Assembly (NCBI GenBank): GCA_902778855.1
Contig: CACYZM010000031.1
Coordinates: 1-43,115, forward strand
Direction: 5' to 3'
Length of the DNA: 43,115 nucleotides
From: an uncultured Bacteroidia bacterium
GTDB taxonomy: Bacteria; Bacteroidota; Bacteroidia; Bacteroidales; UBA932
The notes beneath the pieces are model-generated. The model did no database searches. It saw nothing but the letters and a program-made list of their open reading frames with translations, and had not been told where the DNA came from. The translations under genes were made by a program, and so were the position numbers. Below are positions 6,410 through 38,953 of the stretch, piece after piece. Numbering within the stretch: the first letter of the stretch is position 1; the number at the start of each line of letters is the position of its first letter.

Positions 6410-6520
6410 CGCTGCAATGTACACACCAGTGAATCAGCGGATTATTAGAGTTGATCCCCTCGTTTTTCGGGGGGATCAACTGTCGTAATCTGCTGACTGT
6501 CAATTGCGTCCATTGCAGCG
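6410..6520 (+). repeat. RAYT-associated palindromic repeat, copy A
   Basis: This 111 bp imperfect palindrome is bounded by a perfect 10 bp inverted pair, CGCTGCAATG at 6410-6419 and CATTGCAGCG at 6511-6520. The centre is a second hairpin with a 13 bp stem (one G-T pair), 6450-6462 pairing with 6468-6480 around a TTTTT loop. Intermediate segments also pair partly. Two more copies in the same orientation occur at 8061 and 9620. It fills most of the gap between the secreted protein gene and the phosphatase gene. Confidence 0.93.
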
Positions 6521-6541
6521 GAAAAAGTGGCAGTTTTTGCG

Positions 6542-6549
6542 TATCTTTG
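6542..6549 (+). promoter_or_regulatory. -7 box of the phosphatase gene
   Basis: TATCTTTG matches TAnnTTTG and ends 4 nt before the ATG, so a transcript from it would have almost no leader. It lies 22 bp beyond the right arm of repeat copy A. Confidence 0.5.
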
Positions 6550-6553
6550 CCGT

Positions 6554-7015
6554 ATGACTAAGATCCTGTTCATTTGTCTGGGGAACATCTGTCGCAGCCC
6601 GATGGCTGAGGCGATGTTCAGCCATCTGGCCGCAGAGGTCGGCCGTTCCGATGAATTCGAGGTCGCATCAGCGGCCGTCAGCGAGGAAGAGTGGGGGAAT
6701 CCGATCTATCCGCCGGCCGCCGCCATCCTGCGCCGGCACGGCATCCCCTACGATACGGTCCGCACGGCCCGGCCGATGAAAAAGGCCGATTATCAATACT
6801 ATGATTTGATCATCGCCATGGACGAGGCCAACATCCGCGGCATCCGCCGCATCGCCGGCGACGATCCGGCCGGCAAAATCCATCTTCTGCTGGACTACGC
6901 CGGCGAACACCGCAACGTGGCCGACCCCTGGTACACCCGCGACTTCGATACCGCCTACAACGACATCCTCCTCGGCTGCCGCGCCCTGTTGAAAGCGCTG
7001 CCGCACGATTCATAG
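6554..7015 (+). CDS. Low-molecular-weight protein-tyrosine phosphatase
   Basis: The 153-residue protein has the family's usual length and its P-loop near the N-terminus, LFICLGNICRSPMAE, which is the C-x5-R-S/T motif with Cys8 as nucleophile (residues 8-15, reading CLGNICRS). The general-acid loop appears as ADPWY near residue 127. These enzymes hydrolyse phosphotyrosine in cytoplasmic proteins; arsenate reductases share the fold, but the DPWY motif favours a phosphatase. The ATG at 6554 is used because upstream codons would precede the beta strand that leads to the P-loop. The gene lies between repeat copy A and the RAYT gene, converging with the latter across a 6 bp gap. No tyrosine-kinase or capsule gene is nearby to suggest a substrate. 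Confidence 0.92.
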   Translation: MTKILFICLGNICRSPMAEAMFSHLAAEVGRSDEFEVASAAVSEEEWGNPIYPPAAAILRRHGIPYDTVRTARPMKKADYQYYDLIIAMDEANIRGIRRIAGDDPAGKIHLLLDYAGEHRNVADPWYTRDFDTAYNDILLGCRALLKALPHDS

Positions 7016-7021
7016 CCGCCC

Positions 7022-7939
7022 TCATAGTCTGAGAAGTTTGGCGACTTCCTTCTCGTTTGCCCCGGTTTCCCGCATCAGCATTTGCCCCAGGCGCCGCCGG
7101 TCGGCCTCCGGCAGGTTCAGGACCCGTTCCATCGAGCCGTAGCCTTTGGCGAAGCACAATTCCCGGATCATCGTTTTGTAGCAACGGTAGTCTTTGCCGA
7201 AAGTGTCCTCCTCAATGTCATACTCACTGCCGGTATTGGCGTTGAGGACGATCACCATCTTTCCGTATGATTCGTAGTAGGACGTCGTGGCGGGATAATC
7301 GATACAGTTGTATTTCCGGATCACGTAGTCGATGAACTGCTGGATTTCCCGGAGTGACAAGTTTTTCGTGGCCTTGTCGATTTCAGTATAATCGAGCCAT
7401 CTTCCCTCCTTTCTGCAAGCCTTTACGGTATTGAACGCTTTCCGGAGTTCCCATCGGGCCCTGTCGATGCGGAGTTTCTCCGAGAACGGAGACTTTTTGT
7501 TGGCATAGGCCAGAAAGTTCCAGCGGTCTTCTTCTACCTGGGATGCAAGGCGTCCTTCTACGGGATTGTTGTAGACATAGGCAATGGCCGACCGGATTCT
7601 TTTGTGCGCCAATTTCGGCGCACAGCCGAACGGTGTGTTGAACATGGGTCCGGTCCGGCGATAATGGCGGTTCCATAGGTAGGTGAATACTTTTGTGTAC
7701 TCCCGCATAAAGGCCCGGAAACTATCAACGTCTCTGACGTATACCAGAAGATGGATATGATCGGGCATCAGACTGATGCCCAGGATTTGAACGCCATATC
7801 GGCGGGCGAATACGGAAATGACAGAAAAAAGAATCAGGTAATCTTTGACGGAATAGAAAATGAGATATCCGTTTCGGGTATTCTGATAGACGTGGTGGAT
7901 GGCGTTCGCCCTGACAATCGGTTTATTCCTTCCCCTCAT
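7022..7939 (-). CDS. REP-associated tyrosine transposase (RAYT, Y1/HUH family)
   Basis: The 305-residue product has the core of the IS200-like Y1 transposase fold. The HUH motif is LMPDHIHLLVY with His61 and His63, and a helix with the probable nucleophile Tyr81 (alternatively Tyr87) reads FMREYTKVFTYLWNRHYRR. It is followed by a GPMF segment like the GxLWxxRF motif of RAYTs and by YVYNNPVEG. About 150 extra C-terminal residues end in a helix-turn-helix-like segment, MRETGANEKEVAKLL. Such enzymes nick and join single-stranded DNA at hairpins and are usually single-copy genes flanked by the palindromes they recognise. Here copies A, B and C of a palindromic repeat lie within 2 kb on either side. 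The gene has no IS-like terminal structure of its own. It is less GC-rich than its neighbours, consistent with transfer. Confidence 0.9.
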   Translation of the reverse strand: MRGRNKPIVRANAIHHVYQNTRNGYLIFYSVKDYLILFSVISVFARRYGVQILGISLMPDHIHLLVYVRDVDSFRAFMREYTKVFTYLWNRHYRRTGPMFNTPFGCAPKLAHKRIRSAIAYVYNNPVEGRLASQVEEDRWNFLAYANKKSPFSEKLRIDRARWELRKAFNTVKACRKEGRWLDYTEIDKATKNLSLREIQQFIDYVIRKYNCIDYPATTSYYESYGKMVIVLNANTGSEYDIEEDTFGKDYRCYKTMIRELCFAKGYGSMERVLNLPEADRRRLGQMLMRETGANEKEVAKLLRL

Positions 7940-7994
7940 ATCGCTCGCAGCTTTTATTGTTTGTCAGGACCGCGTCGTGCAGCCCCTGTTGTGA

Positions 7995-8026
7995 CAAAGA
8001 TCGCAAGGGTTTGCCAATAATGCAAA
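7995..8026 (-). promoter_or_regulatory. Promoter of the RAYT gene
   Basis: On the minus strand TTTG (8023-8026) is followed after exactly 20 nt by GATCTTTG (7995-8002), one mismatch from the TAnnTTTG -7 box. The leader would be about 50 nt. It lies between the RAYT start and the outer left arm of repeat copy B. Confidence 0.5.
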
Positions 8027-8042
8027 TCATCTTCCGCCCTCC

Positions 8043-8198
8043 GTCCGGCCGGTCCTTCCTGCGCTGCAATGTACGCATCAGTAAATCAGGCTCTTACATA
8101 AGTTGATCCCCTCGGTTTTCGGGGGGATCAACTTGTGTAATCACCTGACAGCCAATTGTGTCCGTTGCAGCGCAAAAAAGAGGAAGGACCGGCCGGAC
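8043..8198. repeat. RAYT-associated palindromic repeat, copy B, with extra 18 bp outer arms
   Basis: The shared 113 bp unit spans 8061-8173, with GCGCTGCAA at the left end and TTGCAGCGC at the right. Its central hairpin, 8102-8132, has a 13 bp stem and a GTTTT loop. Only this copy has a further perfect 18 bp inverted pair outside, GTCCGGCCGGTCCTTCCT (8043-8060) and its complement at 8181-8198, separated from the unit by 0 and 7 nt. It lies just past the stop of the metallophosphoesterase gene and may act as its terminator. The rest of the 266 bp gap (7940-8205) holds only the RAYT promoter. Confidence 0.93.
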
Positions 8199-8205
8199 TG
8201 CCGCA

Positions 8206-9597
8206 CTAGCGGCGGGGCTGGAAGGTGAAGCGGTCCTGGATGGCGCCGGTGACGAGATTGTGGACGCGGATTTCCAGGCGGCCGCGGCGGACGAGGCCTT
8301 CGACGACGGTGGGGAACTTGCCGGGGTCTTCCTTGCGGTTGTCTCCGGAACCGGTGAATCCCAGATCGGGCCCGCCGCCGACAATCTGGGCCCAGGGGCG
8401 GTCGGCCGTCGGGGCGTCATAGCGGTAGCGGTGCTGGTGGGCGGTGATGATCAGCTGGCAGCCGGCTTCTTCCAACAGCGGGGTCCACAGCCGGGCGCAG
8501 GTGCGCTGCCAATAAGCGAAGTCCGCGCTGTACTGCGGATCTTTATCGTCCGGCGCCACGTCTCCCGGATTGTGCCGGGGATTGTCGTCGAATAGCGGGA
8601 TGTGGCAGAAGGCCACCAGATAGGGGGCCGTGCGGATTTCCTCCCGGGCGAGGGCGTCGCGCAGCCACTCCGTCTGCGCTTCGCGGTACGGCCCGCTCGT
8701 GAACAGGCCGGCGAAAATCGGGTTGGTGTCGAGTTTGTCTTCCGCGGTGTCAAGGCCGATCAAGGCCATGTCGCCGAGACGGACAGCGAAATTGCGGCCG
8801 AGATCCCAGTCGCGGGGCAGCCGCTCTTCCGGCTGGCGGAACATCCAGACCCGTTCGAGATGCCGGTTGGCCATTCCCCGGCTGTCGTGGTTGCCGGGCG
8901 CGAAGAGATAGGGGATCTGGCTGGCATAGTCATTCCGTTCGATCTCCGGCTTCAGGAAGATGCGGATCTGGTCTTCGACGGTCTCTTCCACATTGCTGGC
9001 ATCGCCGTTCCAGATCACACAGGCCGGCGCCAGCTCTGCAACTTTTTCGATGACCCGGCCGAACGGCTCCCACCGGGCGTGGGTGTCGTTGATGACGCAG
9101 AAGTGGGCCTTCGCCTTCGCGCCAGCCGTGGTGAAACGATAGATATGGGAATCTTCTTCGTTGCCGAGGATTTTCATCCGGTAGCCGCCGTCGTACCGGA
9201 TCCGGTCGGCACCGATCCGGTAGTAATAGCGTGTGGCAGGTTTCAGGCCGGTGATCCGGACCCGGATGACCCGGTCGTCGATGTCCGTGACGCGGTAGCC
9301 CCCGCAGAGGAACTTCCTGGCGTCCGACAGGTCCGGCTTTTGGCCGATCAGGACATAACCGTTGGCCAGGGCGCTCACGGCGAAGGCGACGCCGACAGAC
9401 GTGTCGGCAAAATTCTGCAGCATCGGCGCCGACACGAGGAGCGGGCCTTCGCCCGGCTCCTCCGGCTCCGCCGGGTTCTGATCGGCATCTGCCAATTCTG
9501 AATCCGCCGCCGGCATGGCAGCCGCTTTCATCAACTCGCCCGACCCGGCCACCGCTGCCAGCAGCGCCGAGGTCTTGATAAAGTCTCTCCGTTTCAT
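8206..9597 (-). CDS. Secreted purple-acid-phosphatase-like metallophosphoesterase
   Basis: The 463-residue protein begins MKRRDFIKTSALLAAVAG, a twin-arginine-type signal, so it is probably exported folded. Residues about 55-150 form a fibronectin-III-like domain (VRITGLKPATRYYYRIG), as in purple acid phosphatases. The catalytic domain follows with all calcineurin-like motifs: VINDTHAR, WNGDASN, APGNHDSR, FCHIPLF and ITAHQHRYRY. These residues bind two metals, and the enzyme would hydrolyse phosphate esters in the periplasm; the natural substrate is unknown. It is bracketed by repeat copies B and C, each within about 35 bp of its ends. A TATTTTTG -7 box lies 5 nt before the start. The C-terminus is intact. 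Confidence 0.9.
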   Translation of the reverse strand: MKRRDFIKTSALLAAVAGSGELMKAAAMPAADSELADADQNPAEPEEPGEGPLLVSAPMLQNFADTSVGVAFAVSALANGYVLIGQKPDLSDARKFLCGGYRVTDIDDRVIRVRITGLKPATRYYYRIGADRIRYDGGYRMKILGNEEDSHIYRFTTAGAKAKAHFCVINDTHARWEPFGRVIEKVAELAPACVIWNGDASNVEETVEDQIRIFLKPEIERNDYASQIPYLFAPGNHDSRGMANRHLERVWMFRQPEERLPRDWDLGRNFAVRLGDMALIGLDTAEDKLDTNPIFAGLFTSGPYREAQTEWLRDALAREEIRTAPYLVAFCHIPLFDDNPRHNPGDVAPDDKDPQYSADFAYWQRTCARLWTPLLEEAGCQLIITAHQHRYRYDAPTADRPWAQIVGGGPDLGFTGSGDNRKEDPGKFPTVVEGLVRRGRLEIRVHNLVTGAIQDRFTFQPRR

Positions 9598-9602
9598 AAT
9601 GA

Positions 9603-9610
9603 CAAAAATA
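9603..9610 (-). promoter_or_regulatory. -7 box of the metallophosphoesterase gene
   Basis: TATTTTTG on the minus strand ends 5 nt before the start codon at 9597, immediately inside the left end of repeat copy C. Confidence 0.5.
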
Positions 9611-9619
9611 CGAAAAAAA

Positions 9620-9732
9620 CCGCTGCAATGTACGCATCAGTAAATCAGTGAATTGCACGGGTTGATCCCCTCGTTTTTGAGGGGGATCAAATTGCGTAAT
9701 CGGCTGTCAGTCAATTGTGTCCGTTGCAGCGG
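9620..9732 (+). repeat. RAYT-associated palindromic repeat, copy C
   Basis: The third 113 bp copy is in the same orientation as A and B. Outer arms are CCGCTGCAA (9620-9628) and TTGCAGCGG (9724-9732). The central hairpin 9661-9690 keeps TTGATCCCC with GGGGATCAA but closes with TC/GA pairs around the loop, where A and B have CG/CG. It lies between the divergent metallophosphoesterase gene and the 50-codon ORF. Confidence 0.93.
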
Positions 9733-9760
9733 AAATTTTGGCGGGGTGCGTAATAATGAG

Positions 9761-9768
9761 TATCTTTA
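9761..9768 (+). promoter_or_regulatory. -7 box of the small ORF/glycosylase unit
   Basis: TATCTTTA is one mismatch from TAnnTTTG and ends 6 nt before the ATG at 9775. Confidence 0.4.
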
Positions 9769-9774
9769 CGAAGT

Positions 9775-9927
9775 ATGTGTAAGATACCGACAAAAGGACT
9801 GCTGGCGGTGAACGGGGTGTTGTGGACGGCCATCGGGACGAAGATTCTGGTGACGGGCGTCGCCAGCTATATGCGGCTGGGAGCGGCGGTCGCAGCCGCT
9901 GCCGCCGCAGCCAGATACAACAGATGA
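9775..9927 (+). CDS. Small 50-residue hydrophobic ORF, possible remnant
   Basis: An ATG at 9775 opens 50 codons ending in TGA at 9927. The peptide starts MCKIPTKGLLAVNGVLWTAIG and has one hydrophobic segment followed by an alanine-rich tail. A TATCTTTA box lies 6 nt upstream and the stop overlaps the start of the next gene (ATGATG), so translation could be coupled. The N-terminus faintly resembles the first span of longer Bacteroidota membrane proteins of unknown function, recalled from memory, so it may be a truncated copy. It may also be only the 5' leader of the glycosylase gene. No homologous part continues in another frame. Confidence 0.4.
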   Translation: MCKIPTKGLLAVNGVLWTAIGTKILVTGVASYMRLGAAVAAAAAAARYNR

Positions 9928-36514: not shown

Positions 36515-37216
36515 ATGAAACGGCTGCTGGTCATATCCTATTGGGTGGTCTCCGTCCTGCTGGTGTCGATAGTCCTCACCAGTCTGGGCTACCGTTTCCT
36601 GGAAGCGTTATTCGTCGGGACGATGTTCCTTCCCGGGGCCCTGGCGGCCCGGTACTTCTTTCAGAAAGTCGATTTCAAGGACCGGCGGTCCGGAATCCGG
36701 AACACCATCTATATTGTACTGGGCATCCTGATTGCGGAGGTTTTGCTGTTCCTGGTTACCCATTATTACATTATGAACCTGCGGGCGGACCAGCCGATGA
36801 ACGATATCCCCCGGCTCCTGACGAATCCCGCCTTCATCGCCATCATCCTGACCGCGCTTGCGACGGGCAGCCATTTCTTCGAGGCGTGGCTCGAGCGGAA
36901 ACACCCCGCTGCGCCCGCGCCCATCACCTTCACTTCTGAAAGAAAACCGGTCACCCTTCCCATCGAAGAAATCCTGTACGTGGAATCCAACGACGATATC
37001 ACCACGGTCGTTGCGACCGGCGGCCGCAGCTTCCGGAACATAACCCCCATCTCCCGCTGGGAAGCCATCCTCAAGCCCCACTTCATCCGCATCCACCGGT
37101 CCTATCTCGTCAACAAAGCCGCCATCACCGACATCGACGTCGACATCCTCCTGATCGGCGAAACCCAACTCCCCATCTCCCGCAAATACAAGGATGACGT
37201 GCTGGCGCTGAGGTAG
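36515..37216 (+). CDS. Membrane-anchored LytTR-domain transcription regulator
   Basis: The 233-residue protein has four N-terminal membrane spans (SVLLVSIVLTSLGYRF, ALFVGTMFLPGALAARYF, TIYIVLGILIAEVLLFLVTH and IAIILTALATGSHFF). The C-terminal LytTR DNA-binding domain runs from about residue 145: VTLPIEEILYVESNDDITTV, RNITPISRWEAIL and HFIRIHRSYLVNKAAI. LytTR proteins bind paired short direct repeats. A membrane-bound form without a receiver domain suggests direct sensing rather than kinase control, which is inference. No histidine kinase lies nearby. The upstream open frame overlaps the opposite gene and is rejected. The gene ends in a cluster of GTAGGTC motifs. Confidence 0.9.
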   Translation: MKRLLVISYWVVSVLLVSIVLTSLGYRFLEALFVGTMFLPGALAARYFFQKVDFKDRRSGIRNTIYIVLGILIAEVLLFLVTHYYIMNLRADQPMNDIPRLLTNPAFIAIILTALATGSHFFEAWLERKHPAAPAPITFTSERKPVTLPIEEILYVESNDDITTVVATGGRSFRNITPISRWEAILKPHFIRIHRSYLVNKAAITDIDVDILLIGETQLPISRKYKDDVLALR

Positions 37217-37350
37217 GTCCCGGCAACTTTTGGGGTAGGTCGAATAATTAGATCGGGACCTACCCCGGGTATCGGCTTCTCAACGCTTCTGCCGGTGTAG
37301 GTCTGCCACCATTCGTTCGACCTACCCCAAAATAGCCGGAGACCTACCCC
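37213..37350. repeat. Cluster of GTAGGTC/GACCTAC motifs after the LytTR gene
   Basis: The decamer GGGGTAGGTC occurs once forward (37232-37241) and three times reversed as GACCTACCCC (37257-37266, 37319-37328, 37341-37350). Partial GTAGGTC copies lie at 37213 and 37298. Perfect inverted pairs are formed at 37228-37244 with 37316-37332 (17 bp) and 37213-37222 with 37254-37263 (10 bp). It fills the first half of the 294 bp gap before the secreted-protein gene. Confidence 0.85.
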
Positions 37351-37351
37351 G

Positions 37352-37483
37352 TAAACGAAGCCCCCCGCTTCAGCGGGCCGTTCCGAAGGAACGCGGGGTC
37401 TGGGGCAGAGCCCCGGTAAAAAAAGGCGCGGCAGTCCGCGCCGCATAAAAAAAAGAGCTGTCACTTGGACAGCTCTTTTTATG
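37352..37483 (-). repeat. Tandem-terminator module, copy 1
   Basis: About 132 bp closely matches 38750-38880. It holds five hairpins in a row: CCCGCT tc AGCGGG, GTTCC gaa GGAAC, GGGGC aga GCCCC, GGCGCGG cagt CCGCGCC (37425-37442) and AGAGCTGTC acttg GACAGCTCT (37454-37476). Read on the minus strand the last two are each followed by T7 or T8, so they form tandem terminators for the gene at 37511. Confidence 0.88.
37445..37480 (-). terminator. Terminator of the secreted-protein gene
   Basis: A perfect 9 bp stem (37454-37462 with 37468-37476) is followed on the minus strand by T8. It begins about 30 bp past the stop at 37511, and a second terminator-like stem follows at 37418-37442. Confidence 0.85.
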
Positions 37484-38750: not shown

Positions 38751-38880
38751 AAACGAAGCCCGCTTCTGCGGGCCGTTCCGAAGGAACGCGGGGTCTGGGG
38801 CAGAGCCCCGGTAAAAAAAGGCGCGGCAGTCCGCGCCGCATAAAAAAAAGAGCTGTCACTTGGACAACTCTTTTTTATGC
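38750..38880 (-). repeat. Tandem-terminator module, copy 2, downstream of tRNA-Asp
   Basis: This is the second copy of the block at 37352-37483, with the same five hairpins in the same orientation. The stem nearest the tRNA is AGAGCTGTC with GACAACTCT (38849-38857, 38863-38871), extended by A/T pairs to GCATAAAA/TTTTATGC. The next stem is GGCGCGG with CCGCGCC (38820-38837). Both are followed by T runs on the minus strand and so terminate tRNA-Asp. Confidence 0.88.
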
Positions 38881-38953
38881 GGTGCGGACGAGACTCGAAC
38901 TCGCGACCTCCGGCGTGACAGGCCGGCATTCTAACCAGCTGAACTACCGCACC
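38880..38953 (-). tRNA. tRNA-Asp (anticodon GTC)
   Basis: The 74 nt minus-strand gene starts GGTGCGG and ends CCGCACC plus discriminator G at 38880, giving a perfect 7 bp acceptor stem. The D arm is GTTCAGCTGGTTAGAAT. The anticodon stem-loop reads CCGGCCTGTCACGCCGG with GUC. The T arm is GCGAGTTCGAGTCTCGT, with the usual GTTCGA. CCA is not encoded. A terminator follows at once. Confidence 0.97.

Follow-up and report, generated by a model that had tools for sequence, protein, structure and literature searches.

A stretch of DNA from an uncultured Bacteroidia bacterium (Bacteroidales, UBA932; contig CACYZM010000031.1 of assembly GCA_902778855.1, 43,115 nucleotides, referred to here as the window) carries an intact gene for an HUH/Y1 transposase-like protein, RAYT-A, and three copies of a nested palindrome that we call family A. 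We consider it likely that these represent one of several RAYT-repeat pairs in the genus, each made of a single-copy HUH/Y1 gene and its own nested palindromes of approximately 108 bp, with the enzyme acting on its cognate repeats. A first-pass annotation of the window had reported three same-orientation double palindromes, and indeed their arrangement around the gene is confirmed as real and far above chance. The 109-bp cores of copies 2 and 3, all on the + strand, are 79% and 81% identical to that of copy 1, and upon folding of the single-stranded + strand each of the three copies performed better than 200 of 200 shuffled sequences (z = -8.5, -9.7 and -4.0 for copies 1, 2 and 3). The features of the locus are given below, with scores from R1, a covariance model built from 15 family A copies of the same genome.

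6411-6519, + strand: copy 1 of the family A nested palindrome, with core GCTGCAATGTAC...ATTGCAGC (109 bp) and central stem AGTTGATCCCC; 114.3 bits with R1 (copy is part of the model)
8063-8171, + strand: copy 2 of the family A nested palindrome, located 123 bp upstream of the start codon of RAYT-A; 116.8 bits with R1 (copy is part of the model)
9622-9730, + strand: copy 3 of the family A nested palindrome, located 24 bp upstream of the start codon of the metallophosphatase gene; 106.2 bits with R1 (copy is part of the model)
7022-7939, - strand: RAYT-A, HUH/Y1 transposase-like gene, 305 amino acids; characterized by Pfam and NCBIfam matches, alignment and a structure model
6527-7015, + strand: low-molecular-weight phosphotyrosine phosphatase gene, neighbour of RAYT-A; outside the system
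8206-9597, - strand: metallophosphatase gene, situated between copies 2 and 3; outside the system

All three copies sit in gaps between genes. The initial description of a RAYT embedded among them holds for copy 2, the only one that adjoins the gene; copy 1 is separated from it by the phosphatase gene and copy 3 by the metallophosphatase gene.

The host genome (2.41 Mb in 79 contigs, 98% complete) encodes four RAYT-like genes, where the first-pass annotation had described a single HUH gene with RAYT layout; the three paralogues of RAYT-A are 41-45% identical to it. Each paralogue is present once, and each is accompanied by a family of its own. RAYT-B (contig C9) has TCTTTCTGTCC hairpins on each side, RAYT-C (contig C2) has ATCGTGTGCG elements with CGTGGC ends on each side, and RAYT-D (contig C1) is adjoined by a CTGGAG-ended element, with another one past an open reading frame of 230 amino acids. 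Copies elsewhere in the genome, which a REP-RAYT system calls for (REP, repetitive extragenic palindrome), were found with R1: 57 rows correspond to 17 distinct family A places at a score of at least 60 bits, rows exceeding places because palindromes match on both strands. BLAST with one query element each returned 26 rows for family C, 4 for D and 5 for B, and the stretches of the genome that were read added 13 C and 5 D elements that were complete at either end (only elements whose two ends fit a pattern were admitted to these sets, and one 116-bp row is a second reading of one C place). At five places (contigs C17, C73, C44, C4 and C56), by coordinate arithmetic, A, C and D elements are separated by ~40-200 bp.

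We then considered 61 genomes, consisting of the host genome and 60 relatives, with 37 in the genus and 24 outside it. Long-form RAYTs, defined by E below 1e-40 (one such gene is cut by a contig end), are present in 22 of the 37 same-genus genomes and in none of the 24 others. R1 matches at E up to 0.001 were found in all 22 same-genus genomes with a long-form RAYT versus 3 of the 15 without (G011, G018 and G019; Fisher p = 2.5e-7, a value that ignores phylogeny and the incompleteness of metagenome-assembled genomes, MAGs), and in none of the 24 genomes outside the genus; among the 22, G006 yielded a single weak match. Of the genomes with an A-type RAYT, i.e. one at least 55% identical to RAYT-A, 10 of 10 have strong family A matches (R1 E of 1e-12 or better), versus 7 of 27 same-genus genomes without (p = 5.6e-5). 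Repeats are therefore rare where a long-form RAYT is lacking, which is not the outcome that the first-pass annotation had named as refuting; the seven genomes with strong family A but no A-type gene count against its reading.

The pairing is also seen locus by locus. Flanks were compared for 42 of the 45 RAYT loci, leaving out L051 (contig end), L078 (broken copy) and L079 (duplicate of L047). In the 13 genomes with two or more RAYTs, the upstream flank of a RAYT was best matched by its own downstream flank at 28 of 34 loci; own upstream and downstream flanks paired at 30 bits or more in 31 of 42 cases, and cross pairs within one genome did so in 1 of 64. Between loci, flank similarity tracks RAYT identity, reaching at least 30 bits in 92% of the 24 pairs with 75% identity or more, and in ~1% of those below 50%.

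All 10 A-type genomes have the low-molecular-weight phosphatase gene next to RAYT-A, which therefore seems to be vertically inherited. In family A the outer repeats, GCTGCAAYGKAC, are mostly constant, while stem bases 42-45 vary by lineage: TGAT/TGAC in G000, G003, G004 and G023 (RAYT 78-100% identical to RAYT-A), TCCT in G027, G001 and G033 (~70%) and TGCT/TACT in G028 (58%). Dispersed arms, among which window copy 3 was counted, are of their own genome's RAYT-flanking type in 68 of 68 cases for TGAY (a figure biased upward for G003 and G023, whose copies are the top of a list scored by a TGAT-trained model), 22 of 34 for TCCT (the 12 others comprising 1 TGAT and 11 of other types) and 13 of 16 for TGCT/TACT/TGCC, the types having been named after the flanking copies had been seen. 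For G027, G028, G001, G033 and G008, where 45 places were listed (29 dispersed, 11 RAYT-flanking and 5 unused), the bias of the TGAT-trained model runs against this result. At one orthologous intergenic site in six species, the tetramer reads TGAT (G000), AGCT (G004), TGAT (G023), TGCT (G028), TCCT (G027) and TCGC (G001); both arms share one tetramer in all six, with 0-3 mismatches elsewhere in the 13-base stem, and the tetramer fits the RAYT-flanking type of the genome in four. Stem bases thus tend to follow the RAYT lineage in the sequences compared, with exceptions. Together with the co-occurrence and the locus-by-locus pairing, this supports the initial suggestion that we are dealing with a separate REP-RAYT-like system of Bacteroidota that has a target structure of its own.

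The families share a blueprint that consists of an outer inverted repeat, a CTGANNNTCAG-like arm on each side and a central hairpin, over 107-109 bp. Elements measure 109 bp in A (73 of 73 distinct matches compared), 108 bp in C (15 of 15 with both ends) and 107 bp in D (5 of 6); the A set derives from 75 best-strand matches, two being identical to others, and leaves out L019 and L020 of the host genome, second matches in L013 and L017 and a 110-bp match in L034. Conserved bases continue for ~6 positions beyond the A core on each side (G 87%, C/G 70%, then A at 79, 81, 66 and 65%; 102 copies), and if these are counted the full A element is about 121 bp long. Counting from either end, the arm motif lies at base 17 in A and C but at base 16 in D; on average it matches 6.4, 6.8 and 6.1 of 8 positions for A, C and D, versus 4.0, 4.3 and 4.7 at the next best offset; the left arm of A more often reads CAGTNNNTCAG. 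For 20 of the 21 full-length elements beside non-A RAYTs, the two arms carry the motif at the same offset (best CTGANNNTCAG match within offsets 13-21, at 4-8 of 8 positions), and the resulting spans, worked out by hand, are 75-78 bp.

The central stem of A (bases 39-51 with 59-71) covaries; positions 41/69, for instance, are paired in 86% of 73 copies versus 40% expected. In an orientation-free comparison of 99 copies, pairing is above that of random arms in the stem (z = +16.8 for 39-45 and +5.6 for 46-51) and below it in loops 16-24 and 28-31 (z = -7.2 and -4.4). The persistence of the loop signal in this comparison speaks against mixed copy orientation as its cause; it may equally reflect the presence of two different arms in each element. 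A three-armed cloverleaf with the arms as mini-hairpins was also considered and is not supported, the left arm of A pairing poorly (Watson-Crick fractions of 0.26 at 18/26 and 0.12 at 20/24) and the right arm pairing better (0.89 at 84/92, 0.92 at 85/91) without covariation. In these ~108-bp elements, pairing is under selection, and mispairing apparently as well.

RAYT-A matches Pfam Y1_Tnp above the cut-off (E = 1.9e-6), and its best family, NCBIfam REP_Tyr_transpos, with E = 5.4e-11 and 42.6 bits, below the cut-off of 80 bits; REP_Tyr_transpos is matched by 20 of 20 long-form members at E up to 0.01. Its HUH motif is DHIH (H61/H63) and its tyrosine motif is YVYNNP, in which Tyr121 is probably the catalytic tyrosine, as its position in the YxxNNP motif indicates. 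No variation is seen at H61, H63, Y121, N125 or P126 in any of the 20 long-form RAYTs that were aligned, which are ~305 amino acids long and carry mostly DHIH and YLYNNP motifs. Transposase chains in the PDB match the HUH/Y1 core (best E = 0.0011). RAYT-A carries in addition a C-terminal half of ~150 amino acids that ends in predicted helix-turn-helix (HTH)-like helices. The AlphaFold model is poor (mean predicted local distance difference test score, pLDDT, of 48.4, with five sequences), with helical blocks from residue 251 at pLDDT 72-91, and HTH_23 is weakly matched by 1 of 20 members (E = 0.011). Across 393 genomes of the order, with no more than five candidates scored per genome (E up to 1e-10), the C-terminal half appears to be restricted to the genus, because matches outside it stop by profile residue 168.

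A scan of named-species genomes revealed four relatives of RAYT-A, all in uncultured Bacteroidales/Bacteroidia MAGs: RGIG3317 from goat reticulum (99% identity), UBA3290 (81%), RUG13471 (78%; RUG presumably standing for rumen genome) and UBA2861 (41%). One long-form RAYT, L078 (genome G010, contig C33, 4500-6600), is a broken copy matched as two pieces, a sign of gene decay. Weak Y1 core matches in G011, G018, G020, G021, G026 and G036 (E from about 1e-8 to 2.5e-4, open frames of ~290-420 amino acids) suggest that the genus has another Y1 family, a divergent one.

Target-site duplications of 3-9 bp showed no excess over shuffled flanks in 102 A copies, and a miniature inverted-repeat transposable element (MITE) of a DDE transposon, with target duplications, is rejected on this basis. 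Several intergenic sites are occupied across species, with the stem kept paired; other sites in relatives hold a B-type hairpin or no element, with differing or rearranged flanks. The same intergenic sites are used by different families: at two sites where the host genome has A, G023 carries a B-type TCTTTCTGT hairpin (L124, contig C21, 34900-35800; L134, contig C5, 10100-11000). This sister genome is also devoid of the metallophosphatase segment (window 8180-9923) and of one repeat copy, one copy being left, a difference that could be related to loss between direct repeats or to gain.

We propose that an element that becomes single-stranded, on the lagging strand or during transcription, would fold into a long interrupted hairpin. 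The RAYT would read its constant layout, namely the CTGANNNTCAG-like arms at fixed spacing and the internal loops kept unpaired, as well as the family-specific bases of the central stem and outer repeat. The catalytic tyrosine would then nick and rejoin near the foot of the structure, and cognate copies would be spread or renewed. Binding, nicking, strand transfer and mobility are inferred in this scheme. Such a system bears on how RAYTs choose and spread their repeats, and on why RAYTs are kept. One genome can hold up to four enzyme-repeat pairs, and along a TGAT, TCCT, TGCT series the stem bases seem to have evolved jointly with the enzyme, so that swaps could be used to test address bases and specificity residues.

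A possible, if doubtful, extension of this scheme is a modular code, in which a two-domain RAYT, so far known from one genus, would recognize a constant scaffold (arms, obligatory mispaired loops and a fixed span of 75-78 bp) together with an address that can be exchanged (the outer repeat plus four stem bases). Drift in specificity would lead to the rewriting of a family even at sites occupied across species, which would then be homes repeatedly renewed by the cognate enzyme. We hold this extension to be less probable because, at the shared site, the tetramer of two species out of six does not match their RAYT type.

A number of observations weigh against cognate RAYT-repeat pairs. Strong family A is found in the seven same-genus genomes without an A-type RAYT mentioned above, two of which (G011 and G018) have no long-form RAYT in their assemblies, and 11 of 42 RAYT loci have no upstream/downstream flank match of 30 bits. 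Copies within one genome are related by descent and their counts are thus not independent. Family B occupies only a few places in the host genome, and among the 15 copies of family C the stem hardly varies and shows no covariation (z = +1.0, -2.4), with a weak loop signal (z = -2.3, -1.6). The tetramer type is not clearly shared in G008 (RAYT 55% identical to RAYT-A); G004 (AGCT, type TGAT) and G001 (TCGC, type TCCT) do not fit at the orthologous site, and because of these two departures the data speak against a strict tetramer code. Lastly, no clean empty site was found among the sites of relatives, so that movement of a single element was not caught.

Other explanations account for part of these data. 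With palindromes on both sides of many RAYT genes and an outer part resembling terminal inverted repeats, gene and flanks could form an ordinary insertion sequence bounded by terminal inverted repeats of great length, the dispersed elements being its MITEs; TIRtrons as described in PMC3733652 provide a precedent. We find this quite unlikely, since each paralogue occurs once in the host genome, RAYT-A keeps its phosphatase neighbour throughout the A-type genomes, copies 1 and 3 lie past neighbouring genes and target duplications show no excess. It is also unlikely that the elements are hairpins serving the host (in transcription control, at mRNA ends or in chromosome organisation), selected at fixed sites, with RAYTs merely among them or maintaining them. 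The presence of paired stems at the same intergenic position across species and the location of the window copies in intergenic gaps would be in line with such a role, which nevertheless does not account for a separate family beside each paralogue, for the tracking of RAYT identity by flank similarity, or for repeats being found in all genomes with a long-form RAYT and in few of those without. Local duplication or gene conversion could by itself keep nearby copies alike, with no recognition by a protein, and the shared-site element is about as identical to copies of its own genome (0.65-0.71) as to the G000 ortholog (0.67-0.72). However, distant copies on other contigs carry the RAYT-flanking tetramer type, and families stay distinct even where A, C and D elements are close neighbours, making this explanation very improbable. 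Cognate RAYT-repeat pairs thus remain our preferred interpretation.

Elsewhere in the window, a 117-bp direct repeat (98% identical; 37364-37480 and 38759-38875) carries a terminator-like hairpin, AAAAAGAGCTGTC..., at its end, and its second copy is close beside a tRNA gene at 38880-38953. An imperfect inverted repeat at 37212-37348, with 57-nt arms and GGTAGGTC motifs, is unlike the RAYT repeats. Rfam at gathering thresholds yields a tRNA only in the window, and no RNA family at the repeats.

In REPtrons (TnpAREP-REP), as presented for E. coli and S. maltophilia in PMC8266576 and PMC6006769, an HUH/Y1 gene likewise lies between members of a dispersed palindrome family of its own, a genome can hold several cognate pairs, stems are interrupted and families mix in clusters. 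A gene flanked by its own palindrome family, with further copies in the genome, is indeed what we observe, thinly so for family B. The elements are nevertheless longer than classic REPs and nested, as had been noted at first pass: in the same accounts REPs are 20-50 nt long and occur as single REPs or inverted pairs, whereas the Bacteroidales elements are 107-109 bp long and form one long nested hairpin. They do not correspond to canonical REPs, 20-50 nt palindromes that follow GTAG or GTGG; A elements are 109 bp long and end in GCTGCAAYGKAC, and D elements end in CTGGAG. There is no general GT[AG]G foot, GTGG being present only in C-type ends (CGTGGC), within the paired stem as judged from the consensus, and the protein carries its ~150-amino-acid C-terminal half. 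The conserved mispairs recall the bulge of the E. coli REP, described as required for activity (PMC8266576). IS200/IS605 TnpA has the same HUH/Y1 core, and no target duplication is seen; there, the mobile unit has the gene inside, whereas the Bacteroidales element is one palindrome without a gene.

In searches of an open-access library, a scope that leaves most subscription papers and all preprints outside, we recognized no description of this Bacteroidales element family; relatives of it may be listed under TnpAY1 subclass 2.6 or 2.1 of PMC6006769. TIRtrons and their TIRYT proteins, as described in PMC3733652, also combine a RAYT-like gene with long inverted repeats that flank it and bear no relation to GTAG REPs; some of these are double palindromes, and families are of moderate copy number, all of which is observed here. 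In that account and in PMC6006769, TIRYT proteins (TnpAY1 subclass 2.1) are likewise longer; they have a C-terminal HTH-like domain, given as Bac_DnaA_C, HTH_23 or HTH_28, to which the helical C-terminus described above may correspond. The TIRtron GGGGWSAS motif was not seen by eye in the A, C and D consensus, and the fixed-length blueprint, the arms common to families and the stem bases that follow the RAYT lineage differ from TIRtrons as described. TnpAY1 subclass 2.6, according to PMC6006769, is found mostly in Bacteroidetes, with 'atypical secondary structures' that flank the genes and have copies elsewhere in the genome; its proteins have a median of 179 amino acids and NH[LIV]H and YIH[QN]NP motifs, versus ~305 amino acids and mostly DHIH and YLYNNP here. 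Our best reading is a system that functions in the manner of a REPtron and has its closest counterparts in TIRtrons (PMC3733652) and TnpAY1 subclass 2.6 (PMC6006769), which would extend REP-like systems to elements of ~108 bp.

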